Of a stretch of DNA of 64,000 nucleotides, positions 12,967 to 31,341 are shown in pieces. Numbering within the stretch: the stretch's first letter is position 1; every line of letters begins with the position of its first letter. Position numbers and translations under genes: made by a program. Source of the stretch: Salipiger pentaromativorans (GTDB lineage Bacteria; Pseudomonadota; Alphaproteobacteria; Rhodobacterales; Rhodobacteraceae). The notes below the pieces were generated by a model. It was not told the origin of the DNA. It saw nothing but the letters and a program-made list of their open reading frames with translations, and ran no database searches. The stretch covers positions 186,001 through 250,000 of the forward strand of contig NZ_JAMDHK010000002.1 of the NCBI RefSeq assembly GCF_024721115.1, written 5' to 3'.

Positions 12967-13031
12967 GCGATGGGCTCCTGCGATGACGGTGGGGTCAGGA
13001 TGCGCCCCCCGCGTGCGGGGGGCAAGGGGGG

Positions 13032-13499
13032 CTATTCGGTGAAGGCGGCAGGCACGGCGCCGGTGAGGCCGGGCAGCAGATGCGCATCCAGCGCGAAGAC
13101 ATGGCGCGGGGTGCCGGCGGCGGCCCAGATCGTGGGGAACTCCAGCAGGCGCGGGTCGATCCAGGCACGGATCGGGCTGAGATGCCCCACCGGCGCCACG
13201 CCGCCGATGGCAAAGCCGGTCTGCGAGCGGATCAGGTCGGCATCGGCCTTGCCCAGCGGCTCGCCCGCCAGCGCCGAGGCCTTCTCGGCGCAGACCTTGT
13301 TGCCGCCCGCGGTCAGGAACAGCACCGCCTCGCCGCTCTCTTCGGCGCGGAAGATGATCGACTTGGCGATCTGGTCGATCTCGCAGCCGACGCTGTCGGC
13401 GGCCTCCTGCGCGGTGCGGGCCTGGCCCACCTCGCGAATGTCCGGCTCCATCCCGGCGGCTTCCAGTGCGGCGCGCACCCGTTTGAGGCTCTTGCTCAT
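13032..13499 (-). CDS. YbaK/EbsC-type aminoacyl-tRNA deacylase
   Basis: A 155-residue single-domain protein of the YbaK/ProX editing family, which hydrolyses mischarged tRNAs (for example Cys- or Ala-tRNAPro) in trans. Typical features are the early TAQEAADSVGCEIDQIAKSIIF segment with its central lysine, the GGNKVCAEKA block, and GFAIGGVAPVGH with the conserved GGxxPxGH turn. The start at 13499 gives the usual family length. It is divergent from glnE (102-base gap) and is followed on the same strand by the site-2 protease gene. Confidence 0.92.
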   Translation of the reverse strand: MSKSLKRVRAALEAAGMEPDIREVGQARTAQEAADSVGCEIDQIAKSIIFRAEESGEAVLFLTAGGNKVCAEKASALAGEPLGKADADLIRSQTGFAIGGVAPVGHLSPIRAWIDPRLLEFPTIWAAAGTPRHVFALDAHLLPGLTGAVPAAFTE

Positions 13500-13601
13500 G
13501 GCGGTCTCCTGTCGTTTCTTGCAGGGGTTAGACCCCGATGGCGGCGCGGGTGCAAGAGCTTGGCATTGCGCAGACCCGCTCGGCTCCGCCATACAGGCGC
13601 C

Positions 13602-16388
13602 ATGAGCTTTGCATCCCGCATCACCCGCCTGCCGCGCCCCTATGAACCCGAACTGGGAGAGGAGGCCCGCGCCGCCGCGCCCTGGGCCTCGGGCGATGTC
13701 GCCACGCTGCTCGCGGGCGCGGGCGGGTCGAGCCCTTATCTCAAGGGGTTGATCGGCAAGGAATCGGCCTGGCTCGAGGGTGCGCTGGCCGATCCAGAGG
13801 TCGCGCTGCCCGCGCTCTTCGATGCGCTGGAAGACACGCCGGCGGACAAGCTGGACAATGCGCTGCGGCAGGGCAAGCGCCGGGTGGCGCTGCTGACCGG
13901 GCTGGCCGATCTGGCGGGCGTCTGGCCGCTGGCGGAGGTCACGGGCGCGCTCACGCAATTTGCCGATCTGGCGGCGCGGCTGGCGCTGGAGGCGGCGATC
14001 GCGCGCGAGATCCGGCGCGGCAAGCTGCCCGGCGCCACCGAGGAGGACATTGCCATTGCAGGTGGCATGGTGGTGCTGGCGATGGGCAAGATGGGGGCCT
14101 TCGAGCTGAATTACAGCTCGGATATCGACCTTATCTGCCTTTTCGATCAGGATCGCTTCGAGCGCGACGATTTTCACGAGGCGCGCAGCGCCTTCGTGCG
14201 GGCCACGCGCAAGATGTCGGCGACGCTCAGCGATCTGACCGGCGAGGGCTATGTCTTCCGCACCGACTTGCGGCTGCGCCCCGATCCGGCGGTGACCCCG
14301 GTCTGCATCGCCATGGAGGCCGCCGAGCGTTATTACGAAAGCCTGGGCCGGGCGTGGGAGCGCGCCGCCTATATCAAGGCGCGGCCCTGCGCGGGCGACA
14401 TCGCAGCGGGCGAGCGCTTTCTCGACACGCTGCGCCCCTTCGTCTGGCGGCGGCATCTGGATTTCGCCGCCATTCAGGACGCGCATGACATGCGCCTGCG
14501 CTACCGCGATAAGAAGGGCCACGGGCCGATCACCCTGCCGGGCCACGACATGAAGCTGGGCCGGGGCGGCATTCGCGAGATCGAGTTCTTCACCCAGACG
14601 CGGCAGATCATCGCCGGCGGGCGCGACCCGGATCTGCGGGTGCGCGGCACGGTCGACGGGCTGCGGGTGCTGTCGGAAAAGGGCTGGGTGCCCTTCGATG
14701 TGACCGAGCGGCTTACGGATCATTACCGCGCGCATCGCGAGGTGGAGCACCGGGTACAGATGGTCAACGATGCGCAGACCCATCTGCTGCCGGGCTCGGG
14801 CGACGGCTTCGACCGGCTGGCGGCGCTGATGGGGCGCGACCGGGCCGAGCTGGAACACGATCTCAAGGCCCGGCTCGAAGAGGTGCACGAGCTGACCGAG
14901 GGGTTCTTTGCGCCCGATGCGCGCGACGGGCGCAAATGCGAGGTGCCCGACGAGCTGGAGCGAAGCGAACTTCTGGCGCGCTGGACAAGCTATCCGGCGC
15001 TGCGCTCCGGGCGGGCGATGGAGATCTTCAGTCGTTTGCGGCCCGAGATCCTGAGCCGTCTGGCCCGCGCCGCGAAACCGCAGGAGGCGCTGGCGGCCTT
15101 CGACGGGTTCCTCGCCGGACTGCCCGCCGGCGTGCAGCTCTTTTCGCTCTTCGATGCCAATCCGCAGCTCATCGACCTGCTGGTCGACATCGTCTCGACC
15201 TCGCCCGATCTGGCGCGGCACCTGTCGCGCCATTCCAGCGTCTTCGACGCGGTGATCGGCGGCGATTTCTTCAGCCCCTGGCCGGGGGCGGCGGCGCTCA
15301 CGGCCGAGCTGGGCGAGATTCTTGCGCGCGAGGGTGATTACGAACGCCGTCTCGATATGGCGCGCCGCTGGGCCAAGGAATGGCATTTCCGCGCGGGGGT
15401 ACATCTGCTGCGCGGCCTCAGCGAGCCCGAGGAGGCCGGGCAGTGCTATGCGGATCTGGCCGAGGCGGCGCTGGCGGCGGTGCTGCCGGTGGTGCAGGAG
15501 GAATTCGCCCGCAAGCACGGCCCCGCGCCGGGGCGCGGCGCGGTGGTGGTGGGCATGGGCTCGCTCGGGGCGCGGCGGCTGCACGCGCTGTCCGATCTCG
15601 ACCTGATCGTGATCTACGATCCGGCGGGGGTCGAGGCTTCGGAGGGCCGCCGCCCCTTGCAGTCGCGGCAATATTACGCCCGGCTGACCCAGGCGCTGAT
15701 CACCGCGATGACCGCGCCCATGGCCGAGGGCAAGCTCTACGAGGTCGATATGCGGCTGCGCCCCTCGGGCAATCAGGGGCCGGTGGCGACCTCGCTCGCC
15801 TCTTTCACCGAATACCAGCGCAAACAGGCCTGGGTCTGGGAGCATCTGGCGCTGACCCGCGCGCGAGTGGTGGCCGGGCCGGTGGAGCTGGCCGAAGAGG
15901 TCGAGGCGCTGCGGGCCGGGATCCTCGCGGCACCGCCGCCGCGCGCCAAGGTGCTGGGCGAGCTGGCCGAGATGCGCGCGCGCATCGCCGCCGCCAAGGG
16001 GCAGGGCGACCCGTGGGATCCCAAGCTGGGGCGCGGGCGGATGCAGGACATCGAGCTTCTGGCGCAGGCCGGGGCGCTGCTGTCGGGCCGGGCGCCCCGG
16101 CGCACCGCGCGCGGGCTCGCGGCGGCGGCGCGCGACGGCTGGCTGGAGAAGGCGGAGGCCGATCACCTTGCCGCCACCTACCGGCTGTGCTGGAGCCTTC
16201 AGATCGGCGCGCGGCTGATCACCGAGGGCGCGCTCGACCCGGAAGAGCTGGGCGCGGGGGGCTGCGCCTTCCTCACCCGGCTGACCGGCACGCAGGCGGC
16301 GGCGGAGATGCAGGAAAAGCTCGACGACATGACCCGCCGCGCCGCCGGGATCATCGACGCGGCATTGCCCAGGGAGGCGGAGACATGA
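13602..16388 (+). CDS. glnE: bifunctional glutamine synthetase adenylyltransferase/deadenylase
   Basis: A 928-residue enzyme that adenylylates glutamine synthetase and reverses that modification by phosphorolysis, under control of PII. Two nucleotidyltransferase domains are visible. The first has YSSDIDLICLFD near residue 171. The second has GSLGARRLHALSDLDLIVIYD near residue 663. Each has the linked GlnD PII-uridylyltransferase-type helical region after it (RLRPDPAVTP and RLRPSGNQGP are the matching conserved blocks). Length and domain order are normal for alphaproteobacteria. Its stop overlaps the ATG of the next small gene (ATGA). Confidence 0.96.
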   Translation: MSFASRITRLPRPYEPELGEEARAAAPWASGDVATLLAGAGGSSPYLKGLIGKESAWLEGALADPEVALPALFDALEDTPADKLDNALRQGKRRVALLTGLADLAGVWPLAEVTGALTQFADLAARLALEAAIAREIRRGKLPGATEEDIAIAGGMVVLAMGKMGAFELNYSSDIDLICLFDQDRFERDDFHEARSAFVRATRKMSATLSDLTGEGYVFRTDLRLRPDPAVTPVCIAMEAAERYYESLGRAWERAAYIKARPCAGDIAAGERFLDTLRPFVWRRHLDFAAIQDAHDMRLRYRDKKGHGPITLPGHDMKLGRGGIREIEFFTQTRQIIAGGRDPDLRVRGTVDGLRVLSEKGWVPFDVTERLTDHYRAHREVEHRVQMVNDAQTHLLPGSGDGFDRLAALMGRDRAELEHDLKARLEEVHELTEGFFAPDARDGRKCEVPDELERSELLARWTSYPALRSGRAMEIFSRLRPEILSRLARAAKPQEALAAFDGFLAGLPAGVQLFSLFDANPQLIDLLVDIVSTSPDLARHLSRHSSVFDAVIGGDFFSPWPGAAALTAELGEILAREGDYERRLDMARRWAKEWHFRAGVHLLRGLSEPEEAGQCYADLAEAALAAVLPVVQEEFARKHGPAPGRGAVVVGMGSLGARRLHALSDLDLIVIYDPAGVEASEGRRPLQSRQYYARLTQALITAMTAPMAEGKLYEVDMRLRPSGNQGPVATSLASFTEYQRKQAWVWEHLALTRARVVAGPVELAEEVEALRAGILAAPPPRAKVLGELAEMRARIAAAKGQGDPWDPKLGRGRMQDIELLAQAGALLSGRAPRRTARGLAAAARDGWLEKAEADHLAATYRLCWSLQIGARLITEGALDPEELGAGGCAFLTRLTGTQAAAEMQEKLDDMTRRAAGIIDAALPREAET

Positions 16389-16648
16389 GCAAGGGGCACA
16401 AGGACGACCCCAAGGGGCTGATCACCGAGGCCTATCGCATCGAGGGCATCGGCGCGGCGGAATGCCGGTCGATCTTTCTCGACTGGGCGCTGTCGCTGCC
16501 CGTGGGGGCCGAGCCGCGCAGCCATATCGAGGCGCTGCTGGCGCGCCACGGGGAAGAGGGCCATCCGATGACGGAGGTGCTGCGCGAGGGGCTGACCCGC
16601 GCCGGGGCGCCGCGCCGCCGGGGCGGCGCCTCGGGCCGCCGCAACTGA
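16385..16648 (+). CDS. small conserved protein coupled to glnE
   Basis: An 87-residue hydrophilic protein whose ATG overlaps the glnE stop by four bases, so it is translated with glnE. It opens MSKGHKDDPKGLITEAYRIEGIGAAECRSIFLDWALSLP and has a basic tail (RRRGGASGRR). There is no signal peptide or membrane segment. I recognise no named family; short companions of this sort after glnE occur in Rhodobacterales. A role with glutamine synthetase control is only suggested by position. Confidence 0.75.
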   Translation: MSKGHKDDPKGLITEAYRIEGIGAAECRSIFLDWALSLPVGAEPRSHIEALLARHGEEGHPMTEVLREGLTRAGAPRRRGGASGRRN

Positions 16649-16763
16649 GGGCACCGGGCCCGCGACGAAGGAAGCACTTGCTCCACGCCGCTGCATGCGT
16701 TTGGCTGTCGGGACCGTTCACACCGGGCCGCCCGCCGGCCCGGCCCGCCCTTGGCCGAGATTT

Positions 16764-18020
16764 ATGCCCGAATACGTTCCCATCGCGATCCCCGAGCATC
16801 CGAGGCTTGCGCAGAACATCATCCATTTCGCCCGCGCGCTGCGCCGCGCCGGGCTGCCGGTGGGGCCGGGCCGGGTGATCGACGCGATCCGCGCGGTGGC
16901 GGCGGCGGGGTTTACCGACCGGATGGATTTCTACTGGACGCTGCACGCCTGTTTCGTGAACCGCCCCGAGCATCGCGTGGTCTTTGCCCAGATCTTCCGG
17001 CTTTACTGGCGCGACCCGCGCTATCTCGAACATATGATGTCGATGATGCTGCCCGCCGTGCGTGGCGTGCAGGAGGAAAAGCTCGCCCAAAGCGCCGAGA
17101 AACGCGCGGCGCAGGCGCTGCTGGGCGACCAGTTGCCCGAACTGCCCCAGCCCGAGGGTGAGGAGGAGGCGACCAAGATCGAGGTCGACAGCTCCTTCAC
17201 CATCTCGACGGAGGAAAAGCTCAAGACGCTGGATTTCGAGCAGATGTCGACCGAGGAGATCGCGCAGGCCAAGCGCATGCTGGCAAAGCTGAAGCTGCCG
17301 GTGAAGCCGATCCCCTCGCGCCGGGGCATGGCGGCGGTGGACGGGCGGCGGATCGACTGGCGCCGCACTCTGCGCGCCTCGATGCGGCAGGGCGGCGAGA
17401 TGCGGTCGCTCGCGCATCTGAAGCCGCGCCCGCGCTGGCCTAATCTGGTGGTGCTTTGCGACATCTCCGGCTCGATGTCGCAATATTCCCGCATGGTGCT
17501 GCATTTCCTGCATGCGGTGGCGAACGAGAAGGGCGCCGGCTGGGCCAGGGTCCATGCTTTCACCTTCGGCACGCGGCTCACCAATATCACCCGCCATCTG
17601 GCGACCCGCGACGTGGACGCGGCGCTGAAGGCGGCGGGCGCCGAGGCGCAGGACTGGGAGGGCGGCACGCGCATCGGCGAATGCCTGCACGCCTTCAATC
17701 GCGACTGGTCGCGCCGGGTCATGGGGCATGGCGCGGTGGTGCTGCTGATCACCGACGGGCTCGACCGCGACGACGCGGCGGCGCTGGAGAAAGAGATGGA
17801 GCGGCTGCATCTCTCGGCGCGCCGCTTGATCTGGCTAAACCCGCTGCTGCGCTGGGACGGGTTCGCGCCCAAGGCCTCGGGCATCCGGGCGATGCTGCCG
17901 CATGTGGACAGCTTCCGCGCCGGGCATTCGATTGCGTCGCTGGAGGATCTCGCGCAGGCGATCTCGCGCCCGGACGATGCGGGCGAGAAGGAGCGGCTGA
18001 TGCGGATGATGGCGGGGTAG
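16764..18020 (+). CDS. coxE: CoxE-like VWA domain protein
   Basis: A 418-residue cytoplasmic protein of the CoxE family (VWA_CoxE). The N-terminal half is helical (HPRLAQNIIHFARALRRAGLPVGPGRVIDAI). The C-terminal von Willebrand A domain carries the metal-adhesion motif DISGSMS at residues 233-239, with later Thr and Asp positions (GGTRIG and LLITDGLDRDD). In CO dehydrogenase clusters CoxE works with the MoxR-type AAA ATPase CoxD in metal-centre assembly. Here it stands about 8 kb from coxSLM, and no MoxR ATPase gene is seen in the window. ATG 16764 fits the family start, but its ribosome-binding site is weak. Confidence 0.88.
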   Translation: MPEYVPIAIPEHPRLAQNIIHFARALRRAGLPVGPGRVIDAIRAVAAAGFTDRMDFYWTLHACFVNRPEHRVVFAQIFRLYWRDPRYLEHMMSMMLPAVRGVQEEKLAQSAEKRAAQALLGDQLPELPQPEGEEEATKIEVDSSFTISTEEKLKTLDFEQMSTEEIAQAKRMLAKLKLPVKPIPSRRGMAAVDGRRIDWRRTLRASMRQGGEMRSLAHLKPRPRWPNLVVLCDISGSMSQYSRMVLHFLHAVANEKGAGWARVHAFTFGTRLTNITRHLATRDVDAALKAAGAEAQDWEGGTRIGECLHAFNRDWSRRVMGHGAVVLLITDGLDRDDAAALEKEMERLHLSARRLIWLNPLLRWDGFAPKASGIRAMLPHVDSFRAGHSIASLEDLAQAISRPDDAGEKERLMRMMAG

Positions 18021-18304
18021 CGGCGTCACCGTTTGAGCTGTCTCCGGCGCGGACCATGGCGACGCCGCCGCGCCATCGCCGGACCGCCCCCCTGGGCCGG
18101 CGATTTGGTGACGCCAGCGCAAAGTGCCGAGGTCTTTCGGATTTGGCAGGGATAAAGTCGGGGGAACCATCTGTCAGATCGCCAAGCCGCGGTCCGGCGA
18201 CGGCGCAGCTTTCTTTGCGCTCGGCGAGCTTTTCCGAACCAGGGTGCTGCCTTGACGGGGCAGACAGGTCTTTGAACCGCCATCCTCTCCGATGTTAGCG
18301 CCAT

Positions 18305-18318
18305 TTGATCCAAATCAT
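18305..18318. promoter_or_regulatory. FNR/FnrL-like box upstream of the YeeE pair
   Basis: TTGATCCAAATCAT matches the FNR/FnrL consensus TTGAT-N4-ATCAA with only the last base different. It lies 21 bases before the SqrR-like palindrome. Seen in sequence only; binding is inferred, and a chance match is possible. Confidence 0.4.
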
Positions 18319-18338
18319 GCGGTATATGGAATGTGTTT

Positions 18339-18360
18339 GATATTCGGTTTCCAGAATATC
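18339..18360. promoter_or_regulatory. SqrR/BigR-like persulfide-responsive operator
   Basis: GATATTC (18339-18345), eight bases, then GAATATC (18354-18360): a perfect 7-base palindrome containing ATTC-N8-GAAT, the motif reported for the ArsR-family sulfide/persulfide sensor SqrR of Rhodobacter capsulatus. It ends 21 bases before the YeeE start codon. The downstream genes belong to a family often regulated by BigR/SqrR, which agrees with this assignment. Confidence 0.65.
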
Positions 18361-18381
18361 TCTGGATCGGGAGGGTCATTC

Positions 18382-18930
18382 ATGACTTTGAACTGGAAAC
18401 TGGGCGGTTTGCTGCTGGGCGCGGTGTTCTTCGCCGCCGTCCTGCTGGTGAAGCCCATCGGGGTGAGCACGCAATTCGTGATCCTGGACGGGATCATCGC
18501 GGATAGCGTCGCCACCGACTTCATCACGCAGAGTGACGAGGGCTATACCTCGACCAACGCTTATATGGCGAAATCCGGTGGCAAATACGCCAAGAACGCC
18601 GCCAACCCGCTGAATTACAGCTTCATCTTCGTGTTGGCGATGGTCGGCGGCGCGTTTCTGTCGACCGTCCTGCGCGGCGGCATATCGAAGGAAGAGCGCA
18701 GCGCTCCGGCGATCTGGCGGGCGAATTACGGCGACACGCCGTGGAAACGCTACGCTGTGGCCTTTGTCGGCGGCTTCGTGGTGCTTTACGGCGCGCGCCT
18801 CGCGGGCGGCTGCACCTCGGGGCACATGATGTCGGGCATGATGCAGACCTCCCTTTCGGGCTATATCTTCGCCGCCGGGGCTTTCCTGACCGCCGTGCCC
18901 ACCGCCATGCTCATGTATAAGGAGGGCTGA
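18382..18930 (+). CDS. YeeE/YedE family sulfur transporter, first half
   Basis: A 182-residue inner-membrane protein with about four hydrophobic helices. It carries the family hallmark GGCTSGH (LAGGCTSGHMMSGM), whose cysteine is part of the sulfur-compound conduit in YeeE-type transporters. A periplasmic-type loop lies between helices 1 and 2 (DSVATDFITQSDEGYTSTN). The family moves thiosulfate or related sulfur species. It is coupled to the next gene by 3 bases, and the two together make one YeeE-like unit. The start at 18382 is chosen for GGGAGGG upstream. A SqrR-like operator lies upstream. Confidence 0.9.
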   Translation: MTLNWKLGGLLLGAVFFAAVLLVKPIGVSTQFVILDGIIADSVATDFITQSDEGYTSTNAYMAKSGGKYAKNAANPLNYSFIFVLAMVGGAFLSTVLRGGISKEERSAPAIWRANYGDTPWKRYAVAFVGGFVVLYGARLAGGCTSGHMMSGMMQTSLSGYIFAAGAFLTAVPTAMLMYKEG

Positions 18931-18933
18931 CCC

Positions 18934-19521
18934 ATGCAGATCGCTCTTGCCATTCTCATCGGCGCCGGTTTCGGCTTTGTGCTCGACCGTGTCGGCGCCA
19001 CCAACCCCAATGTGATCGGCGGCATGCTGACGTTGCGACGGCTGCACCTGATGAAGACCATCCTGCTGGCCATCGGCACCGGCTCGATCCTGATGTTCGG
19101 CGGGCAGATGCTGGGCCTCGTGGATGTGATGCATATGGACGTGAAGGCCGCCTATGCGGGTGTGTTCATCGGCGGGCTGCTGCTCGGCGCGGGCTGGGCA
19201 GCCTCGGGCTACTGCCCCGGCACCGGCGTCTGCGCGCTGGGGACGGGGCGCAAGGATGCGCTTTTCTACATCGCGGGCGGGCTGCTGGGCGCTGCCGCCT
19301 ATATGGCGACCTATCCGGCCTGGAAATCCTCCGGCCTGCTCGACGATATCGCGGGCGGCAAGGTGACGCTAGGCACGGTGCCGGGATCGAAATTCGACGG
19401 TCTCTTCGCGGTCTCCGGCGATATGCTGGGCATCGCGCTGGGGCTGGTCTTTGTGCTGGTGGCCTTCGTGCTGCCCGAGAACATCTCGGGCGGTCGCGTG
19501 CAGGAAGTGCCTGCGGAGTAA
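18934..19521 (+). CDS. YeeE/YedE family sulfur transporter, second half
   Basis: A 195-residue membrane protein, partner of the preceding gene, with four to five helices. It contains the second conserved cysteine motif ASGYCPGTGVCALGTGRKDA, with two cysteines. Paired half-size YeeE/YedE proteins of this kind occur in BigR/SqrR-regulated sulfide-detoxification operons. The likely role is transfer of sulfur (thiosulfate, sulfite or persulfide) across the inner membrane. No persulfide dioxygenase or sulfide-quinone reductase gene is present next to it in this window. Confidence 0.9.
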   Translation: MQIALAILIGAGFGFVLDRVGATNPNVIGGMLTLRRLHLMKTILLAIGTGSILMFGGQMLGLVDVMHMDVKAAYAGVFIGGLLLGAGWAASGYCPGTGVCALGTGRKDALFYIAGGLLGAAAYMATYPAWKSSGLLDDIAGGKVTLGTVPGSKFDGLFAVSGDMLGIALGLVFVLVAFVLPENISGGRVQEVPAE

Positions 19522-19595
19522 GGCGCCGGTCTTAAAACATCTGGCGGCTCCGGAGAGGACCTCCGGGGCCGTTGCGGTTGAAAACGCCGGATTTT

Positions 19596-19656
19596 GAGTA
19601 TTTGCCAGAAAGATGAAAGGGCAGGCGCATCCCTTTCATCTTTCCGGACAATACTC
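19596..19656. terminator. bidirectional hairpin between convergent genes (paired TATTTG element)
   Basis: The left arm (19596-19621) starts GAGTATTTGCCAGAAAGATG and the right arm (19631-19656) is its inverted partner, ending CATCTTTCCGGACAATACTC. The 26-base arms have a few mismatches and a 9-base loop. It lies between the YeeE gene (plus) and prfC (minus), and T-rich bases flank the left arm. The position at a convergent junction supports a two-way terminator. Confidence 0.65.
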
Positions 19657-19813
19657 CCGCCGGAGGCCGGCCCGAGGCGGGCGCGATTGCTGGGTTTCAG
19701 AAGAGGGCGTGGCCTGTCTTCCGAAAGCCGAATGCCGCCAGAAAGAGGGCGCCGCTCCTGATCTCCTCAAACACTCCTCTGGAGCCTTTGCCGGGCAAGG
19801 CCCGGACCGGAGA

Positions 19814-21421
19814 TCACACCATCATCTCTTTCGTCGCGCTCAGCGTGATGTCGGGGTAATCCCGCACCACCCGGTCGATGTCCCATTGCAGCCGCGTCAG
19901 ATAGACCACGTCGCCATCGTTGTCATGGGCGATGTGCTGCTTGTTGGCATTGACGAATTTCTCCACCGCTGCCTTGTCGCCCGAGACCCAGCGGGCCGAG
20001 GTGAACTGCGACGGCTCGAAGCGCACCGGCAGCCCGTATTCCTGCTCGATCCGCGCGCCCAGAACCTCGAACTGCAGCGCGCCCACGACGCCCACGATAA
20101 AGCCCGAGCCGATATTCGGCTTGAAGACCTTGGCGGCACCTTCCTCGGCGAATTGAAACAGCGCCTTTTCCAGATGCTTGGCCTTCATCGGATCGCCCGC
20201 GCGCACATTCTGCAACAGCTCTGGCGCAAAGGAGGGGATGCCGGTGACCTTCAGCGCCTCGCCCTCGGTCAGCGTGTCGCCGATGCGCAGCTGCCCGTGG
20301 TTCGGGATGCCGATGATGTCGCCCGCCCAGGCCTCTTCCGCCAGCTCGCGGTCGGCGGCGAGAAACAGCACCGGGTTGGCGATGGCCATGGGCTTTTTCG
20401 TCCGCACATGGGTGAGCTTCATGCCGCGCTCGAAATGCCCCGAGGCGAGGCGCACAAAGGCCACCCGGTCGCGGTGCTTGGGGTCCATATTGGCCTGCAC
20501 CTTGAAGACGAAGCCCGCGACCTTCTTTTCCTCCGGCGCGATCTCGCGCGGTTCGGCGCGTGTCGGCTGCGGCTCCGGCGCCAGCGATCCGATGCCGTCC
20601 ATCAGCTCCTTCACCCCGAAGGAGTTGATCGCCGAGCCGAACCAGATCGGCGTCATATGGCCTTCGAGCACCGATTGCGGGTCGAGCGCGGGCAGCAGCT
20701 CGCGCGCCATCTCGATCTCTTCCTTGAGCTGCTCCAGCAAGTCGGTGGGGACGTGCTGTTCCAGAGCCGGATCGTCCAGCCCTTCGATCTTGATCGATTC
20801 CGCCACCTTGTTGCGGTCGGCGCGGTCCATCAGCTCCAGCCGGTTGCGCAGCATGTCGTAGCAGCCGATGAAATCGCGCCCCATCCCGATGGGCCAGCTC
20901 GCCGGGGTCACGTCGATCGCCAGGTTTTCCTGGATCTCGTCGATGATCTCGAACGTGTCGCGCGCCTCGCGGTCCATCTTGTTGCAGAAGGTCAGGATCG
21001 GCAGGTCGCGCAGGCGGCAGACCTCGAAGAGCTTCTGCGTCTGGCTTTCCACACCCTTCGCGCCGTCGATCACCATGATCGCCGCATCCACCGCCGTCAG
21101 CGTGCGATAGGTGTCTTCGGAGAAATCCGAGTGACCGGGCGTGTCCACGAGATTGTAGCGATACTGGCCGTAGTCGAAGCTCATCGCCGAGGCCGAGACC
21201 GAGATCCCGCGCTCCTGCTCCATCTTCATGAAGTCCGAGCGCGTGCGCCGCGCCTCGCCCTTGGCGCGCACCTGACCGGCCATCTGGATGGCACCGCCAT
21301 AGAGAAGGAATTTCTCGGTCAGCGTCGTCTTGCCCGCATCCGGGTGCGAGATGATCGCAAAGGTGCGGCGCCGGGCGATTTCCGGCGGCAGGTCGGGGCG
21401 GTTTTGAGGCGTGTCCAGCAT
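19814..21421 (-). CDS. prfC: peptide chain release factor 3
   Basis: A 535-residue translational GTPase that removes RF1/RF2 from the ribosome after termination. GTP-binding motifs are SHPDAGKTTLTEK (G1), RGISVSASAM (G2 region), DTPGHSDFSEDTYR (G3) and FCNKMDRE (G4). The C-terminal RF3 domain is complete. The start at 21421 gives the usual opening MLDTPQNRPDLPPEIARRRTFAIISHPDAGK in pieces; the 17-residue upstream extension is not family-like. It is divergent from the PGIR-repeat gene. Confidence 0.96.
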   Translation of the reverse strand: MLDTPQNRPDLPPEIARRRTFAIISHPDAGKTTLTEKFLLYGGAIQMAGQVRAKGEARRTRSDFMKMEQERGISVSASAMSFDYGQYRYNLVDTPGHSDFSEDTYRTLTAVDAAIMVIDGAKGVESQTQKLFEVCRLRDLPILTFCNKMDREARDTFEIIDEIQENLAIDVTPASWPIGMGRDFIGCYDMLRNRLELMDRADRNKVAESIKIEGLDDPALEQHVPTDLLEQLKEEIEMARELLPALDPQSVLEGHMTPIWFGSAINSFGVKELMDGIGSLAPEPQPTRAEPREIAPEEKKVAGFVFKVQANMDPKHRDRVAFVRLASGHFERGMKLTHVRTKKPMAIANPVLFLAADRELAEEAWAGDIIGIPNHGQLRIGDTLTEGEALKVTGIPSFAPELLQNVRAGDPMKAKHLEKALFQFAEEGAAKVFKPNIGSGFIVGVVGALQFEVLGARIEQEYGLPVRFEPSQFTSARWVSGDKAAVEKFVNANKQHIAHDNDGDVVYLTRLQWDIDRVVRDYPDITLSATKEMMV

Positions 21422-21472
21422 GAGCGAGCCTATATCGCCAGCCGATGCGCCCCGCAATGCGCGACCGCGCAT

Positions 21473-21501
21473 TTGGAGAACTGCCGGGGTCGTGCTAGAC
21501 T
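21473..21501 (+). promoter_or_regulatory. sigma70-type promoter for the PGIR-repeat gene
   Basis: A -35-like TTGGAG at 21473-21478 and a -10-like TAGACT at 21496-21501 with an exact 17-base spacer. This places a start of transcription near 21508, about 38 bases before the ATG at 21546. Predicted from spacing and similarity only. Confidence 0.5.
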
Positions 21502-21545
21502 GACCGGGCGTTTTTGATCTGCATTATTTCAACAGGAGAACATTC

Positions 21546-21815
21546 ATGTCTGGCAACACCCCCCTCAAATCCCGTCTCAGCAAGGCCCTCGGCCTCTTCG
21601 TCTCCGTTCCCCTGTCGGCTCTGCCGGCATTGGCACAGGACAAGACCCCGGACCGCACGGTCGGGCTGAGCAAGGGCCGCGCCGTCGGCGTGCGCGCGAT
21701 CAAGGGATCGACCGGTTTGCGCGTCCCGGGCATCCGCAAGCCCGGTATCCGCTATCCCGGCATCCGGGTGCCCGGGAGTGTCGGAAAGAACCTGCCGGAG
21801 TTCGAGGGCAAATAA
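21546..21815 (+). CDS. secreted peptide with tandem PGIR repeats
   Basis: An 89-residue protein with a Sec signal peptide (about residues 1-30, ending SALPALAQ). The mature 59 residues contain a run of five-residue repeats: PGIR at 61-64, 66-69 and 71-74, then VPG at 75-77 (RVPGIRKPGIRYPGIRVPG), preceded by Gly/Arg-rich GLSKGRAVGVRAIKGSTGLR. The DNA repeats every 15 bases. The ribosome-binding site AGGAGA lies 7 bases before the ATG. It is followed after only 12 bases by an arginine/agmatine deiminase-family gene. I know no named family. The repeats could be a structural or binding peptide, or a substrate of the neighbouring enzyme (speculative). Confidence 0.75.
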   Translation: MSGNTPLKSRLSKALGLFVSVPLSALPALAQDKTPDRTVGLSKGRAVGVRAIKGSTGLRVPGIRKPGIRYPGIRVPGSVGKNLPEFEGK

Positions 21816-21827
21816 GGGCTTGCCGGG

Positions 21828-22751
21828 GTGCACCTGGCGGTCCGGCCGCGGCCCGACGGGGTCATCCTGCCGGACTATGCGTTTCCGGACGCGATCTGCG
21901 TGCCCTGGTCTGATTTCACTATCAGGGCCACACTCGAGGCGCTTGCGGGCGAGATTTCGCGGCAGGCGGGCGTTGTCCTGATCTGCCGCGACCCCGACGC
22001 CGCCCGGCGCTTTGTCGCGGGTCAGGCCCGTCCCGAGCATTTCGGCATTGTCACCGGCGGCTTCGACAGCCCCTGGCTGCGCGACCACGCACCGGTGGCG
22101 CTGAGGGCCGAAGGCCGGTTGCGATATGTGCGCCCTTTGCGTCACGGCACGCCGCGCGAAAACGATGGCCGCCTGTTCGAAACGGTCTTTCCCGCCGCCG
22201 AGCGGATCACGCCGCTCAATCTGGCGGCGGGAAATCTGGTGACAGGGTCCGGCGGACTGGCGGTGTCGACCGACGGCATTCTGGAAGAGAACGGTCTCGA
22301 GGATCCCGGGCCGCTGCTGCCCATGGCCCGGATGCTGGGGATACACGACTGGCTGATCGTGCCGGGGTTTCCGGACGATCTCAGCCGCCATTCCGATTGC
22401 ATGCTGCGCTTTCTCGGCCCCGATCTCGCGGCGATCTGCCTGCGTGACGACGACCCGGAGGCGCGCCGCGCCTCGGATGCCTGCCGGGACGGCTTGCGAA
22501 AGCTGCGGCCGGAGATACGCCTGCTGGACCTGCCGGCGGCAGCGGGACCGGGCGGGTTCAACAGCCCGCTCAACTGGATACAGCTCGGCCAGACCCTGCT
22601 GCTGCCGGATTTCGGCGTCGAGGATCCGCTGGCGAGAACGCGAACCGCCCGGCTGCGCGCGGCCGGCTTCGACGGCCTCTCGATTCCCTGCGCAACATCC
22701 GGGCTGGGCGGCGCGCTGCATTGCCTGACGGCATCCGTCTTTGCATCCTGA
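21828..22751 (+). CDS. agmatine deiminase / peptidyl-arginine deiminase family enzyme
   Basis: A 307-residue protein of the PAD_porph superfamily, which hydrolyses the guanidino group of agmatine or of arginine residues. Catalytic elements are visible: DSPWLRD with Asp86, the RHSD segment with His188, and the C-terminal nucleophile Cys299 in GGALHC. NWIQLGQTLLLPDFG matches the family's NYIxxNG-type strand. It is shorter than usual agmatine deiminases (about 350 residues), and the central motif NLAAGNLVTGSGG departs from the usual EGGN. The start is GTG, and no signal peptide is seen. It forms a two-gene unit with the PGIR-repeat peptide, so a peptide substrate is conceivable; agmatine remains the default. 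Confidence 0.85.
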   Translation: MHLAVRPRPDGVILPDYAFPDAICVPWSDFTIRATLEALAGEISRQAGVVLICRDPDAARRFVAGQARPEHFGIVTGGFDSPWLRDHAPVALRAEGRLRYVRPLRHGTPRENDGRLFETVFPAAERITPLNLAAGNLVTGSGGLAVSTDGILEENGLEDPGPLLPMARMLGIHDWLIVPGFPDDLSRHSDCMLRFLGPDLAAICLRDDDPEARRASDACRDGLRKLRPEIRLLDLPAAAGPGGFNSPLNWIQLGQTLLLPDFGVEDPLARTRTARLRAAGFDGLSIPCATSGLGGALHCLTASVFAS

Positions 22752-22843
22752 CGGCACAGCGCAGGCATGATGATCCTGCGGCGCAACAAGCAGAGCCGCT
22801 CACCGGGCCGCATCGCAACAGGGCCACACGCGCCCTCCCGCTG

Positions 22844-22866
22844 TTTCCATTGGCTGCAAATATCCC
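22844..22866 (-). repeat. TATTTG intergenic element (variant) before the Hint gene end
   Basis: On the minus strand it reads GGGATATTTGCAGCCAATGG and then AAA, close to the copy at 35196. It lies between the convergent deiminase and Hint genes, at the 3' end of the latter. Confidence 0.5.
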
Positions 22867-22938
22867 GGGGGGAAGCGCGCCCCGGCGCGCGAGGGGGCAG
22901 CGCCCCCAACCACGGCGCCGCAGACGCGGCGCACCCCC

Positions 22939-23967
22939 TCAGCAGCTCGACGACTTGCGCAGAAGTTCCGCCAGATCGGGGCGGTTCAGCAGCGCCTCAT
23001 GCACTTCCAGATCGCCGTGATCGCTCTTGCCGTGCCCGGGCAGGAGCTGCGACAGCCGTTGCGACAGCTCCTGCGGCAGTGCGGCCCGGGTGCGGGTATC
23101 GACCAGCATGGATTCCGCCGCGATTCCCTCGGCATAGATGATCTGATGGTGATCGAAGAGCATCTGGTAATAATCCACGAATCCGCCCTTCACGCGGGTG
23201 ATCGTATCGCCGTTGATCAGATGCCGCGCCTTCACCAGAAGCTCCGACCGCCCGGCACCCAGCCGGTCCTGACGCTGATAGATGAACAGCCGGTGATCGG
23301 GGCTGACCAGAAGATCGCCGGAATTGTGCAGCACGCCCGCCTTGATCAGGATCGGCGCGAAGGCGCCCACGGCGCGCGCCGTGTGGTGCCCGATCCAGCG
23401 GATCTCCTGCGGGCCGTCGTCACGGGTCAGCACCCGGTCGCCGACGCTCAGCGCCTCGACCGGGCGTTGCGCGCCCGAGGCCAGGGTGATCATCGTGCCG
23501 CGGGTGAAGGAGACACAGGCGACCTGCGCGAATTTCTGCAGCGCGTCGTCGCGCGACACCCCGACCAGCGCATAGTCCTGACGCGGGTTCATGGCGCCGA
23601 GCGGCAGCAGCAGGATCTCGGCAACGTCGCCATCGGCGTCGGTTTCCACCAGCACCAGCCCTTCGGTGGTCTCGCCGTCGCCCGACATGAAGGTCACCGC
23701 GCAATCGAGATGCAGATCCGCGCCGGGCGTGCCGATCTCGCTGTCTCGGGCAATCCTGAAGGGCGGCTGGCTGACCGGGTGCAGGCTGAGCCGATGCAGC
23801 GCGGCCACCGGCGAGACGCGGTAGATGTCGTCGGGAATCAGCTCTTCGGCAAAACTCAGCCCGTCGCCGAGATTGGCGCCGTTGATCACCCGGATCTGAT
23901 CCGCGCGATAGACGTTGACGCTATGCGCTGCCTGCGCGTTTGCCGACTGCTCCATGAACTGGTCCAT
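22939..23967 (-). CDS. Hint (hedgehog/intein-type) domain protein
   Basis: A 342-residue protein with a Hint_2 domain in the second half. It opens at Cys151 (CVSFTRGTMITLASGAQRPVEALSVGDRVLT), with the strand QEIRWIGHH and the block-B histidine motif LLVSPDHRLFI, then VKARHLINGDTITRV. The first 150 residues are a separate beta-rich domain. Free-standing Hint proteins are common in Rhodobacterales; they may self-cleave, and many accompany type I secreted proteins, but no exporter or RTX gene is adjacent here. The C-terminus ends SSSC. Either Met1 or Met5 could be the start. Its biological role is unknown. Confidence 0.88.
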   Translation of the reverse strand: MDQFMEQSANAQAAHSVNVYRADQIRVINGANLGDGLSFAEELIPDDIYRVSPVAALHRLSLHPVSQPPFRIARDSEIGTPGADLHLDCAVTFMSGDGETTEGLVLVETDADGDVAEILLLPLGAMNPRQDYALVGVSRDDALQKFAQVACVSFTRGTMITLASGAQRPVEALSVGDRVLTRDDGPQEIRWIGHHTARAVGAFAPILIKAGVLHNSGDLLVSPDHRLFIYQRQDRLGAGRSELLVKARHLINGDTITRVKGGFVDYYQMLFDHHQIIYAEGIAAESMLVDTRTRAALPQELSQRLSQLLPGHGKSDHGDLEVHEALLNRPDLAELLRKSSSC

Positions 23968-24127
23968 GACATGCCCACCTTGTCAAACCCACCTGACCGC
24001 TTCCATGCCGGTCGCGGTACGGAAACAGACTATACCCCATTGTATGCATTGGGAATGTGTCATCAAATGGGTCGTCCGCCGGCGTTTTCCCGGCGCAACA
24101 ACGCGGCAGAGAAGGAGCGCGCAGGAG

Positions 24128-24907
24128 ATGGATCTGAAGATTGCCGGAAAGCGGGCGCTGGTCTGTGCCTCGTCGCGCGGGCTGGGCCGGGGCTGCGCCG
24201 AGGCGCTGGCCGAGGCCGGCTGTTCGCTGGTGATGAACGCCCGCAGCCCGGGCCCGCTGGAGGCGGCCGGCGCGGAGATCAGCGCCGCCTACGGGGTCGA
24301 GGTCACGGTGGTGCCCGCCGATATCGTCGATCCCGAGGGCCGTGCCGCGGTGATCGAGGCGGCGGGGGCGGTGGATATTCTGGTGACCAATTCCGGCGGT
24401 CCGCCCGCGGGATACTGGACGGAATGGGACCGGGGCGATTTCATCGCGGCGCTGGACGACTCCATGCTGACGCCGATCGCGCTGATGCAGGCGCTGATCC
24501 CGGGCATGATGGCGCGCGGCTGGGGCCGGGTGGTCAATATCACCTCGCGCTCGGTCAAGGCGCCGCTGCTGCCGCTGGGGCTGTCGAATTCGGCACGGGC
24601 GGGGCTGACGGGCTTTGTCGCGGGCACCTCGCGGCAGATCGCGGGCAGCGGCGTGACGATCAACAACCTGCTGCCCGGCGTGCATGACACCGACCGCATC
24701 GACGAGCTGGACGATGTGACCGCCGCCGAAAAGGGCATCAGCCGCGACGAGGCGCGCCGCCAGCGCGCCGCCGGCATTCCCGCCGGGCGCTATGGCGATC
24801 CGGCCGAGTTCGGCAAGATGTGCGCCTTTCTCTGCTCGCAGCACGCGGGCTATATCGTCGGACAGAATATCCTGCTCGACGGCGGCGAAACCTTTGCCTC
24901 GCTCTGA
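24128..24907 (+). CDS. SDR-family protein lacking the classical Tyr/Lys
   Basis: A 259-residue short-chain dehydrogenase/reductase-fold protein. The Rossmann dinucleotide motif is ALVCASSRGLGRGCA at residues 10-24, and NSGG stands where NAG is usual. The catalytic Ser is present (Ser140 in NITSRSV), but the positions of the catalytic Tyr and Lys hold Ser153 and Arg157 (GLSNSARAGLTGF). It therefore belongs to the atypical SDR group with LSNxAR in place of YxxxK, and ordinary dehydrogenase activity is doubtful. AGGAG lies 2-3 bases before the ATG. It is followed after 8 bases by the AlkC-like gene. Confidence 0.9.
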   Translation: MDLKIAGKRALVCASSRGLGRGCAEALAEAGCSLVMNARSPGPLEAAGAEISAAYGVEVTVVPADIVDPEGRAAVIEAAGAVDILVTNSGGPPAGYWTEWDRGDFIAALDDSMLTPIALMQALIPGMMARGWGRVVNITSRSVKAPLLPLGLSNSARAGLTGFVAGTSRQIAGSGVTINNLLPGVHDTDRIDELDDVTAAEKGISRDEARRQRAAGIPAGRYGDPAEFGKMCAFLCSQHAGYIVGQNILLDGGETFASL

Positions 24908-24915
24908 GTACCAGC

Positions 24916-26055
24916 ATGGCGCGCGGCCCTGACGGCAAAGGCGGTGGGGCGGGGTTCTCGCTCGCCGATCAGCTTTTCAACGCGGAGACGGCGGGCGATC
25001 TGGCCGCCGGCTTTGCGATGCTCCCCGGCTTCGATGCCGGGCGCTTTCTCGAGACCGTGCTGCCGCGCTTTCCGGGGCTCGGCGTCCATGCGCGGCTTGA
25101 CGTGTTGGCGGATGGGCTCGAAGCGCAATTGCCGCGCGATTTCAACGCGCTGGCCGAGGCTCTTGAAGCCGCGATGCCGCCGCCGCTTTCACCGGATCTG
25201 CGGGACGACGATTTCGGGCGCTTTGTCCATGCGGTGCCTGGCGTGCTGGCGGCACGGCACGGGCTCGAGGCGCCCGAGCGGGCGCTCGACCTGCTCCATG
25301 CGGCGACGCAGCGGTTCTCGATGGAATTCGCGATCCGCCCCTTTCTGAACCGCTGGCCCGATCTGGTGCTCGACCGCATGAGCGTTTGGGCGCGCGATCC
25401 GCATTACCATGTGCGGCGGCTGGTCTCCGAGGGCACGCGCCCCCGGCTGCCCTGGGGCATGGGGATCGCCGTCGACCCGCTGCGCCCGCTGGAACTGCTG
25501 GATCTGCTGCATGCGGATCCAGCGCGCTTCGTGACCCGCTCGGTGGCCAATCATCTCAACGATCTATCCAAGATCCATCCCGAGGCGGTGTTGGGCCGGC
25601 TGCGTGGCTGGCGGGAGCGGGGCGCGCAGGACCCGGCGGAGCTGGACTGGATGACCCGGCACGCGCTGCGCACCGCGGTGAAGCGGGGCGAGCCCGAGGC
25701 GCTGGCGCTGCTGGGCTACCGCGCCGATCTGCCGGTTCGCGCGGCGCTGGAACTGCCCGCCGAGGTGCGGATCGGGGAGATGCTGGCCTTTGCCGTGACG
25801 CTGGAGGGGGAGGAGGCCGGGCCGGTGCTGGTGGACTACCGGCTGCGGTTCGCGCGGCCGTCCGGCGATGCGGAGAAGGTGTTCAAGCTCAAACCCGGGC
25901 GGTTGACGCCGGGGCGCCCGCTGCGGCTGGAGAAGCGGCACCGGATGAAGGGCGACGCGACGACCTTCCGGCTGCATCCGGGACGGCATGCGGTGATCGT
26001 GCAGGTGAACGGGCGGGATGTGGCCGAGGGGGCGTTCGAGTTGCTGGCGGTGTGA
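24916..26055 (+). CDS. AlkC-like DNA alkylation repair protein with Ig-like tail
   Basis: A 379-residue protein. The first about 270 residues are ALK-type HEAT repeats, with the family stretch WARDPHYHVRRLVSEGTRPRLPWG and VTRSVANHLNDLSKIHP. The last 100 residues form a beta-rich domain (EVRIGEMLAFAVTLEGEEAGPVLVDYRLRF, in pieces) like the immunoglobulin-like tail of AlkC DNA glycosylases. These remove 3-methyladenine and 3-methylcytosine without base flipping. The start at 24916 is chosen to avoid overlap with the upstream SDR gene. A second member of the wider family (AlkD-like) is at 60378. Confidence 0.87.
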   Translation: MARGPDGKGGGAGFSLADQLFNAETAGDLAAGFAMLPGFDAGRFLETVLPRFPGLGVHARLDVLADGLEAQLPRDFNALAEALEAAMPPPLSPDLRDDDFGRFVHAVPGVLAARHGLEAPERALDLLHAATQRFSMEFAIRPFLNRWPDLVLDRMSVWARDPHYHVRRLVSEGTRPRLPWGMGIAVDPLRPLELLDLLHADPARFVTRSVANHLNDLSKIHPEAVLGRLRGWRERGAQDPAELDWMTRHALRTAVKRGEPEALALLGYRADLPVRAALELPAEVRIGEMLAFAVTLEGEEAGPVLVDYRLRFARPSGDAEKVFKLKPGRLTPGRPLRLEKRHRMKGDATTFRLHPGRHAVIVQVNGRDVAEGAFELLAV

Positions 26056-26068
26056 GCGGTGTTGGGAG

Positions 26069-26092
26069 TGGTGGGCAAATTGCCCACCCTAC
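26069..26092 (-). repeat. REP-like palindrome, inverted member of a pair
   Basis: The minus strand reads GTAGGGTGGGCAATTTGCCC and then ACCA. It faces the copy at 26145-26168; together with the GC-rich middle they make a REPIN-like inverted pair of about 100 bases between the convergent AlkC-like and RND genes. Confidence 0.75.
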
Positions 26093-26144
26093 GAGGAGGG
26101 GCGCCGCGCCTTCGCCCTGGTCCGCGCCGGGGCAGGGCGCCTCT

Positions 26145-26168
26145 GTAGGGTGGGCAATCTGCCCACCA
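26145..26168 (+). repeat. REP-like palindrome, second member of the pair
   Basis: GTAGGGTGGGCAATCTGCCC and then ACCA, in opposite orientation to the copy at 26069-26092. The intervening bases also contain matching inverted stretches (GGGCGCC). Confidence 0.75.
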
Positions 26169-26201
26169 TCTGCTCTCAAAAATCTCGCCGCACCGGGCGC
26201 C

Positions 26202-29200
26202 CTATTCCGCGGCCTTCAGCGGCGGGACCGCCTTGGGTGCGGCGGCGGCGGGCGGTAGGTCGTCCCAGAGGATCTCCGGCGCCTTCACCTTGCGCGCCGC
26301 CCGGGTCAGCGCCCAGTCCTGCGCGGCCCGGCTGCCGCGCCCGAGCGACAGCGCCGCCAGCGCGCGGGCGATCCACATCAGATAGGTGTTGAACCAGACC
26401 CGCAGCGCCAGCATTGCCGGCGTGAAGACCAGCGTCAGCACCGTCGCGATGGAGAGCCCGAAGACCACCGCCGTCGCCAGTGGCTTCCACCAGAGCGAGG
26501 TGGGCGAGTCGATGGCATAGCCGCCGCCGAAGAAATCCAGCGACAGACCGATCATCATCGGGAACAGCCCCGCGATGGTGGTGACCGTGGTCAGCAGCAC
26601 CGGGCGGATGCGGTCCTCGGCGGTGCGGATGATCGCCTCGATGCGGGGCATGTAGCGGGCGTAATCCTGGAACGTGTCGATCAGTACGATGTTGTTATTG
26701 ACCACGATCCCCGCCAGCGCCACCACGCCGGTGCCGGACATGATGATCGAGAAGGTCTGGTCCATCACGATCATGCCGAGGAACACCCCGGCGGTAGAAA
26801 GCACCACCGCAAGCAGCACCAGAACCGAGTTGTAGAAACTGTTGAACTGCGCCAGCAGGATGATGAACATCAGCGCCAGCGCGGCGGAAAACGCCTGCGC
26901 CAGAAACGCCTGGCTGTCCGCCTCCTCCTCCTGATCGCCGGTCCATTCCCAACTCACGCTCGCCGGCAGCGGATCGGTCTCCAGCCAGGCGGTCAGCGCC
27001 GCGATGCGTTCATTGGCGGTCACCGGCACCACATGCAGCGCCCCGTCCTCGGCCAGTTGCGCCAGCGCGGCGGCGCTCTGGCCCTCGGCGGCCGAGGTCA
27101 CCCGATAGGCGGTGCCGCGCAGGGACAGATCCCCGGTGCCCGGCGCGGTTTCCTCGCCATAGCCGAGGATCTCGCCCTCGGCACTGAAGGCGGACAGCCC
27201 GTCGCGCACCCCGGCCTTGATGTCGAAATGGCGCTTCTGGTCGACGCGGTCGATCTCGGCCAGTTTCGCCACCGGTTCGCGGGTGATGAAATTCGACAGC
27301 GGCACCAGCCCGTCCGAGGTGCGCACCTTGAGCGAATCCAGCGTCGAGAGCACGCGGTCCTCTTCGGGCAGACGCACGCGGATGTCGATCTCCTCGTCCG
27401 AACTATCGACCCGCATCGTGTCGAGCGTGAGCCCGCGCGTCACGAGCTGCACCATGGCGCCCACGGTGGCCACGTCGGCGCCATAGCGCCCGGCCTTCTC
27501 GACATCGACATTGATCTGCCAGTCGATGCCGGGCAGCGGGCGGGTGTCTTCGATCTGGCGCAGCCCGGGCATCGCGTCGAACTGCGCGCGGGCGGCCGCC
27601 GTCGCATCGAGCAGCGCCTGCCAATCGTCGGATTTCAGCCGCAGGTGCACGGGTTTGGCCGAGGCAGGGCCCATGGCGAGATCGAGGATCTCGATCTCGA
27701 TCCCGGGCAGGGCGCGCATCGCCTCGGTCAGCTCTTCCAGCACGATATTGCCGTCGAGCTCGGGCCGGTCGCGGCGGTTGTCCCAGGGCACGATCTCGAG
27801 CTGGATCTGCCCGATCGTGTCCTTGGGCGGCTGCGCTCCGCCGGTGTTGGAACTGAGCCCGCCGTCGCCGGCGAAGGCAAAGGCGGTCTCGATGCCGGGA
27901 TGGGCCAGCACGATGCGCTCGGCGCGTTTGACCAGCGCGTCCTTTTCCGCAAGCGACAGGTTGCCGCGCGCTCGGACATAGACGAGCGCCTGCTCGGGTT
28001 CGCTTTCGGTGAAGAACTGCGTGCCGTTGTTGTTCTCACCGTAATAGCCGAAGACCGAGATCACGAAGAACACCACCGCGCCGATGGTCACGAGCGGCAT
28101 CACCGGATTGGCGGTCACGAGCTGGATGAGCCGGCCGAAGAGCGAGCGGCGATAGCTGCCGCGGATGCGCTTGCGGCGATGCTCGATGCGGGCGGCGTCG
28201 AGCGTGATCGAGGCCATGACGGCGAAGACGAGGAACAGCGCCACGCCGGGCAGCCGGGCGCCATAGCCCGTGGCCGGGTTGTAGAAGAGGAAATTCGGGT
28301 TCAGCACCATCATCGCGCCGGCGAACATTCCCAGCAGGGCCACGGGCACCAGCGCCGCCCGCGCGGCCCAGCTGGGCCAGGCGCGGCGCAGCTTTTCCGA
28401 GGCGTTGTGCAGCAGGCGCGAGAAGCGGCCCGAGACGCCGCCCATCACCGGCAGGTAGATCAGCGCCACCACCAGCGAGGCCGAGAGCACGAAGATCAGC
28501 GTGACCGGCAGCATGCCCATGAACTGCCCCGCGACACCGGGCCAGAACAGCATCGGCAGGAAGGCGCAGAGGGTGGTGGCGGTCGAGGAGACCACCGGCC
28601 AGAACATGCGCTTGGCGGCCTCGACATAGGCGTGCATCGGGCCGGTGCCCTGGGCGATGCGCTTGTCGGCGTATTCCACCACCACGATGGCGCCGTCCAC
28701 CAGCATGCCCACGGCGAGGATCAGCCCGAACATCACGATGTTCGACACGGTGATCCCCATGCCCCAGAGCAGCAGGAAGCAGAGCAGGAAGGAGGTGGGG
28801 ATGGCAAAGCCCACCAGCAGCGCCGCGCGGGTGCCGAGCGTGGCCAGCACCACGATCATCACCAGCGCGATGGCGGTCAGTACCGACCCTTCGAGCTGCT
28901 TGACCATGGAATCGACGATCACGCTCTGGTCGTTGCTGGCGGCCACGGTGACGGTGGCCTGCAACTCGTGCGGCCAGGCCGCCTGCGCCTCGGCCACCAC
29001 GGCGCGCACCGCCGCCGTGGTGTCGATCAGGTTGAAGCCCTTGCGCTTGACCACCTGTAGCGCAACGGTGTTCTCGCCGTTGAACCGCGCGGTGCCCTGG
29101 CGGTCCTCGAAGGTGAGGTGGATGGTCGCCAGATCGCCAAGCGTCACCACCCGGTCGCCGTTCACCTTGACCGGCAGGTCATAGACGTCGCGCGGGTCGT

Positions 29201-31183: not shown

Positions 31184-31341
31184 GGTTCCGGTCTTTCCAC
31201 TCTGTCCGCACCGCGGCGGAGCCTATAACGACACGGGCACAAGGCAAGCCCGACGAACAGCCTGCGGCGCCATGACCGCACGGCACCCGCCCATGGTCCG
31301 GGCGGGCCTCGCGAGACGGTCTGCGGGGTCCGCACCGAATA

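Follow-up and report, generated by a model that had tools for sequence, protein, structure and literature searches.

The window analysed here is a stretch of 64,000 nucleotides from Salipiger pentaromativorans (C22:186001-250000 of a 5.28-Mb genome). It contains two adjacent genes on the forward strand. The first (21546..21815, +) is an open reading frame for a putative precursor peptide of 89 amino acids, with homologues directly upstream of the same enzyme in five other species and with purifying selection in one genus. The second (21828..22751, +) starts with a GTG codon 12 bp after the stop codon of the peptide and encodes a protein of 307 amino acids, predicted to be a deiminase of the PAD_porph family, whose members modify guanidino groups. 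This assignment comes from a PF04371 match, the catalytic residues, a structural model and its fold matches. No promoter-like site was found on the + strand ahead of the pair in the window.

The N-terminal region of the peptide (residues 1-31, 21546..21638, +; MSGNTPLKSRLSKALGLFVSVPLSALPALAQ) resembles a signal peptide: its n-region is basic, a hydrophobic stretch follows (best 11-residue Kyte-Doolittle mean of 1.89), and the sequence A-L-A precedes Q-D, the cleavage site being assigned by eye. A previous inspection of the DNA, the sequence-only reading, had called the peptide Sec-exported. That claim is drawn from the signal-like pattern, so the peptide is described here as putatively exported, apparently by Sec. 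No signal peptide is visible on the deiminase when its N-terminus is judged by eye.

The Arg-containing core (residues 32-89) carries three PGIR units, repeated every five residues in the translation (21726..21767, +); their codons begin at 21726, 21741 and 21756 (residues 61-64, 66-69 and 71-74), and each unit includes an arginine (Arg64, Arg69 and Arg74). These coordinates were confirmed, as was the 307-residue enzyme lying 12 bases further on with its Asp86, His188 and Cys299; Asp190 and Asn249 are present as well. The description of the peptide as Arg-rich is only modestly apt for the window core (7 Arg and 6 Lys in 58 residues) and fits the five relatives better (9-14 Arg in 55-72 residues). 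The PGIR repeat was rejected as a conserved motif, since it was seen in the peptide of the window species and in none of the other five; the six share the arginines.

Linkage and distribution of the pair

The pair was found in six genomes: the window genome (G000), Roseovarius aestuariivivens (G452), G441, G191, G453 and G456. A scan with the peptide only, covering contigs of 84,980 species by a pattern-based method that detects close relatives only, yielded R. aestuariivivens as the sole relative, with 47% identity over the best segment; a deiminase about 45% identical to the window enzyme lies 9 bp downstream of this peptide. Searches with the enzyme only yielded the other four, G441, G191, G453 and G456, and each has a peptide gene 13-22 bp upstream. 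In the two-enzyme query of 394 genomes of the family (393 genera, at most five candidates scored per genome), an intact enzyme was detected in the window genome, G441 and G191, and a C-terminal fragment in G308; in both G441 and G191 the peptide is directly upstream. Within the genus of G441 the enzyme occurs in three of six genomes, G453 and G456 being the two further ones, again with the peptide upstream. Thus, all six intact enzymes found in the clade adjoin a peptide gene in the same order, separated by gaps of 9, 12, 13, 15, 22 and 22 bp (with start codons chosen by the analyst). Five of the six cases came to light after the substrate-enzyme idea had been formed.

A peptide profile applied to the same 394 genomes (at most 13 candidates scored per genome) matched only G000, G441 and G191, the same three with an intact enzyme; the profile was built with these three sequences included, so the information it gives is that no peptide occurs without the enzyme among the 394 genomes. 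In G308 the pair enzyme is broken, none of the three frames giving a complete copy, and the genome yielded no peptide (best E 0.049), which looks like the joint loss of a unit. The broken copy (L038:1453-1914, -) is close to a release factor 3 gene.

The distribution of the pair is patchy. The pair enzyme is present in one of 20 genomes of the genus of the window species and in one of 84 genomes of the genus of R. aestuariivivens. The other match in the latter genus, G531, was discarded as a DDAH/ADI-type protein. In a sample of 385 genomes of the class (at most six candidates scored per genome), the only pair enzyme was that of the window genome itself; nine other matching genomes hold distant PAD_porph proteins. 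No homologous peptide was found upstream of these distant proteins or of the agmatine-deiminase-type L032 in the ten readable cases, a count that leaves L033 aside.

The genomic surroundings were compared by blastp of ORFs of at least 80 amino acids (window 12001-32000, 14 kb in G441, 18 kb in G191 and 14 kb in G452); the peptide is too short for this comparison and was detected by profile. The window and G441 have both flanks in common, including release factor 3, a Hint-domain protein and further genes, and by eye G453 and G456 have the same Hint-side flank as the window. Between G191 and G452, and between either of them and the window or G441, nothing but the enzyme was found to be shared, overlapping antisense ORFs aside. 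As the pair is all that the three neighbourhoods were seen to have in common, it constitutes a unit that occurs in three settings or more. The sequence-only reading had left room for two genes that are neighbours only in this lineage. This reservation did not hold, given that six of six intact enzymes have the peptide directly upstream across three neighbourhoods, and the conserved linkage in five other species rules out chance neighbours.

Several neighbouring genes can be recorded. Just 3´ of the pair, the window encodes a Hint_2-domain protein (22939-23967, -; 141.7 bits), which is kept in G441 and, as judged by eye, also in G453 and G456; no shared copy was found in the G191 or G452 neighbourhoods. 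A second Hint-like protein, recognised by eye, is encoded immediately before the peptide gene in G456 (L049:425-1069) and G453 (L050:2-1072), at the position occupied by release factor 3 in the window and G441. Further upstream in the window, two adjacent genes (18292-18930 and 18934-19521, +) encode membrane proteins, the second matching Sulf_transp and, just under the cut-off, DUF6691; we take them to be YeeE/YedE-like.

Other origins were also considered. No match to the window enzyme (P0002) or its homologue (P0003) was found in the plasmid collection, where the peptide (P0001) gave one weak match (Nonomuraea, E 0.5, 24% covered). No relative was found in viral contigs, and PADLOC and PHROGs gave no match at E<=0.1 for four proteins. 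A phage, plasmid or defence origin was discarded on the basis of these searches. An RNA element was likewise discarded: the single Rfam match reached 23.4 bits, below its gathering score of 100, and was taken as chance.

Family and fold of the deiminase

The recurrent pairing of an Arg-rich peptide with an enzyme of the arginine-to-citrulline type suggests that the enzyme probably modifies the peptide. The nature of the enzyme bears directly on this reading. Four pair enzymes were scanned against Pfam, the L049 and L050 enzymes being left out, and all matched PF04371 (PAD_porph) above the gathering score of 25 bits (30.6 for the window enzyme, and 31.0, 43.0 and 37.3). The residues D86, H188, D190, N249 and C299 are invariant in all 14 aligned proteins (six pair enzymes and eight other PAD_porph proteins; the alignment leaves out L060, L064 and the fragment L033). 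In a HMMER alignment they correspond to D130, H236, D238, N297 and C351 of the Porphyromonas gingivalis enzyme PPAD, the five catalytic residues named in passages of PMC4893104.

The main alternative is that the enzyme is a small-molecule deiminase, with agmatine, free arginine or some other guanidine as its substrate, and that the peptide is a partner of a different sort, in binding, uptake or release. The structural data are compatible with either. Among proteins of solved structure, the sequence profile ranks the agmatine deiminase of C. jejuni (E 3.6e-6) and PPAD (E 2e-4) highest. A model built from 14 sequences (pLDDT 88.9, pTM 0.88; an earlier model from six sequences had reached 71.8, with catalytic loops below 50) matched the Medicago agmatine deiminase 6nib (Z 32.0, rmsd 2.5, 292 residues aligned) as well as PPAD 4ytg (Z 31.2, rmsd 2.4, 290 aligned). 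The predicted fold is therefore PPAD-like and agmatine-deiminase-like in equal measure, and structure cannot separate the two with either model; the solved PAD_porph structures include many agmatine deiminases. The small-molecule alternative also gains from the lack of a visible signal peptide on the enzyme and from the ability of PPAD to accept free L-arginine in addition to its peptide substrates, as stated in part of PMC4893104.

Against this alternative, all four pair enzymes scanned were without an NCBIfam match at E<=1, and thus below the 381.8-bit cut-off of the AguA model TIGR03380. Two proteins of the same class, L066 and L032, score 370 and 240 bits with this model and are called agmatine-deiminase-type here, although both lie below the cut-off. 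The glutamate of the EGG motif in these two proteins is replaced by Ala in the pair enzymes and by Thr in PPAD. Furthermore, the curated AguB model was above its cut-off (410 bits) in none of the six pair genomes, compared with two of 14 control genomes; the best scores were 354 bits for a nitrilase of G452 and at most 173 bits in the other five. The earlier remark that agmatine is the usual substrate is consequently weakened by the missing NCBIfam matches and the AguB result, yet it keeps some force; the nitrilase of G452 comes near the AguB cut-off. Above all, a small-molecule role leaves the constant neighbour, an Arg-containing and putatively exported peptide, unexplained. Taken together, this alternative is considered unlikely.

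In a tree with two agmatine-deiminase-type and six other PAD_porph proteins, the six pair enzymes form one clade (support 95/99). By sequence, the pair enzyme can be classified as a PAD_porph member that is not a recognisable AguA. Its specificity is less easily derived from single residues. In PPAD, Arg152 and Arg154 bind the carboxylate of the C-terminal Arg, the only position on which the enzyme acts, according to passages of PMC4893104. The counterpart of Arg154 (R110) is invariant in the six pair enzymes and that of Arg152 (position 108) is not conserved; L066 also has Arg at position 110, so the specificity of the pair enzymes cannot be read from R110.

A separate PAD_porph clade was observed in other alphaproteobacterial families (L058:1174-2358, L059:1447-2532, L061:1237-2268, L062:1057-2097, L063:1426-2505 and L065:991-2058). 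These proteins have signal-like N-termini (by eye) and conserve LNDGGN, GGLEHADG and MGGGVRCMSW; they match AguA models weakly (29-48 bits) and are possibly exported deiminases.

Leader and core of the peptide

The four peptides scanned had no family match in Pfam or NCBIfam. Leader identity exceeds core identity in all 15 pairwise comparisons of the six peptides; against the window peptide, the values are 0.61 and 0.28 for Roseovarius, 0.65 and 0.40 for G441, and 0.42 and 0.30 for G191. In the last pair the enzyme identity is 0.45, so the leader is not above the enzyme. Among the leader residues, R10, L11, P22 and P27 are conserved. Signal peptides usually evolve fast, and the conservation of this one hints at a second role of the leader. 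The layout of all six pairs, a precursor gene with a conserved leader and a variable core adjoining an enzyme of a modifying type, is that of ribosomally synthesised modified peptides.

The peptide is under purifying selection within the genus of G441. For three pairs of that genus, dN/dS was 0.16/1.06, 0.15/0.93 and 0.02/0.39 in the core, 0.15/1.73, 0.13/1.41 and 0/0.73 in the leader, and 0.14/1.23, 0.16/0.97 and 0.08/0.50 in the enzyme, which indicates that the cell depends on the sequence of the peptide to roughly the same extent as on that of the enzyme.

The cores, of 55-72 residues, contain 7 (window), 10 (Roseovarius), 14 (G441), 9 (G191), 13 (G456) and 12 (G453) arginines. Arginines of the window core are kept between genera more often than other residues in three comparisons (4/5 v 9/41, 6/7 v 16/48 and 5/6 v 9/41), but the margin is smaller in the reverse direction, from Roseovarius (4/9 v 9/37) and G191 (5/9 v 9/37) to the window, and Arg itself helps to place the alignment. 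Arg following I, V, L, M or F, a motif picked after looking at the sequences, exceeds shuffled expectation in the window (p 0.008), Roseovarius (p 0.009) and G191 (p 0.0004) but shows no excess in the G441 genus (p 0.39, 0.25 and 0.20). The feature common to the six cores is thus Arg, often behind an aliphatic residue in three of the four lineages.

The net charge of the core is +9 in the window, +2 in Roseovarius, +10 in G441, +12 in G191, +11 in G456 and +10 in G453. This fits a second alternative, producer protection, in which the cationic core would be a toxin or antimicrobial active in its unmodified form, and the cytosolic deiminase would neutralise the copies retained in the cell by removing their charge. 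The high charge (+9 to +12) of five of the six peptides and the patchy distribution agree with it, and the antimicrobial peptide LL-37 loses charge on citrullination, according to PMC7012854. The Roseovarius core, with its net charge of only +2 and its two Cys, shows that the cores are not uniform and speaks against a general cationic toxin. In addition, no toxin or defence family was matched, and immunity does not need strong conservation of the leader. Protection of the producer is accordingly rated as improbable.

A regulatory role, with the upstream ORF as an arrest or attenuator peptide that senses arginine or secretion and controls the deiminase gene, would suit a small Arg-containing ORF directly 5´ of an arginine-type enzyme, but it is very improbable: arrest peptides are conserved near the C-terminus, unlike these six, whose C-termini differ and whose N-terminus is conserved, an attenuator would not fit into gaps of 9-22 bp, Rfam gave nothing above a gathering score, and the Arg codons are mostly CGC or CGG.

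Proposed citrullination and known systems

The reading preferred here is that the peptide is the substrate of the deiminase and is modified for its function, to which we assign a rough probability of 0.6; it is built on gene order, conservation and family membership. In the precursor made from the first gene, the N-terminal segment would be Sec signal and recognition leader at once; the second gene would produce a cytosolic peptidyl-arginine deiminase of the PAD_porph family. Before export, while the precursor is in the cytosol, the deiminase would bind it through the leader and turn some or all of the core arginines into citrulline, with the loss of a positive charge and a mass shift of +0.98 Da at each. 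The precursor would then pass through Sec, and signal peptidase would release the citrullinated core, which is probably disordered and about 55-72 residues long.

Two objections to the peptide as substrate have to be weighed. The six peptides end in K or D, which counts against it if the strict requirement of PPAD for a C-terminal Arg extends to the pair enzymes. On the other hand, passages of PMC8060559 report that the agmatine deiminase of Arabidopsis, a PAD_porph protein, citrullinates fibrinogen and a peptide in vitro. The second objection, raised in the sequence-only reading, is that, of the two partners, only the peptide is exported. The enzyme indeed has no visible signal peptide, but the mismatch of compartments is not decisive, because bufferin precursors with Sec signal peptides, whose use of Sec has been shown, are also modified. 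In preliminary results, the sequence that the modifying complex recognises includes the bufferin signal peptide (PMC12452194, in passages on these precursors).

More tentatively, and at somewhat less than even odds, the pairs may represent a new minimal class of ribosomal peptides: multiply citrullinated and Sec-exported, made by two genes, with the signal peptide as leader and internal arginines as targets. On this reading, the enzyme would be a peptidylarginine deiminase dedicated to one peptide substrate that is genetically linked to it. If the deiminase does modify its neighbour, the pair would offer a new and very simple way of making citrulline-containing peptides, a directly testable case and a genome-mining handle for citrulline peptides. 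It would also be a second chemistry, after the bufferin iron enzymes, acting on precursors with a Sec signal instead of a leader, and it would imply that peptide-modifying members are concealed in the PAD_porph family, whose proteins are often annotated as agmatine deiminases. No title returned by the literature search, whose coverage lies largely outside subscription journals, describes a precursor peptide with a PAD_porph gene as its partner. Citrullination of peptides by a peptidylarginine deiminase is known; a dedicated two-gene layout that combines a Sec leader with many arginines as targets appears to be new.

The closest known products are the citrulassins, lasso-peptide RiPPs of Streptomyces in which a bacterial peptidylarginine deiminase converts Arg to citrulline, the deiminase gene lying outside the cluster (passages of PMC12971885, PMC9266682 and PMC8498205) and far from that of its peptide (PMC8498205). 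A 2021 review calls this the second report of a bacterial peptidylarginine deiminase activity to the knowledge of its authors (PMC8498205, in part). Both systems would combine a ribosomal peptide with a bacterial peptidylarginine deiminase, citrullination in the pair being proposed. In the citrulassins, as far as these passages describe them, one conserved Arg is the target, a lasso is formed, a protease and a cyclase are needed and the deiminase is encoded elsewhere; in the pair, the precursor adjoins the deiminase, the core contains 7-14 arginines and no other common gene was found.

PPAD shares the predicted fold and the five catalytic residues with the pair enzyme. It is exported, with an Ig-like domain, a C-terminal sorting domain and the requirement for C-terminal Arg (passages of PMC4893104), whereas the pair enzyme has 307 residues, ends eight residues past Cys299 and lacks a visible signal peptide and a counterpart of Arg152. 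AguA (TIGR03380) has the Pfam family, the fold and the catalytic residues in common with it; the pair enzyme differs in having no match to the AguA model, in the replaced EGG glutamate and in its linkage, which is with a peptide gene and, as far as was seen, not with polyamine genes. Finally, the MNIO-modified bufferins resemble the pair in that a Sec signal peptide replaces the classical leader and the precursor adjoins its modifying enzyme; their modification is directed at Cys and performed by iron enzymes with a partner protein, as parts of PMC12452194 describe, and the likeness is one of organisation, homology with the pair not being claimed.
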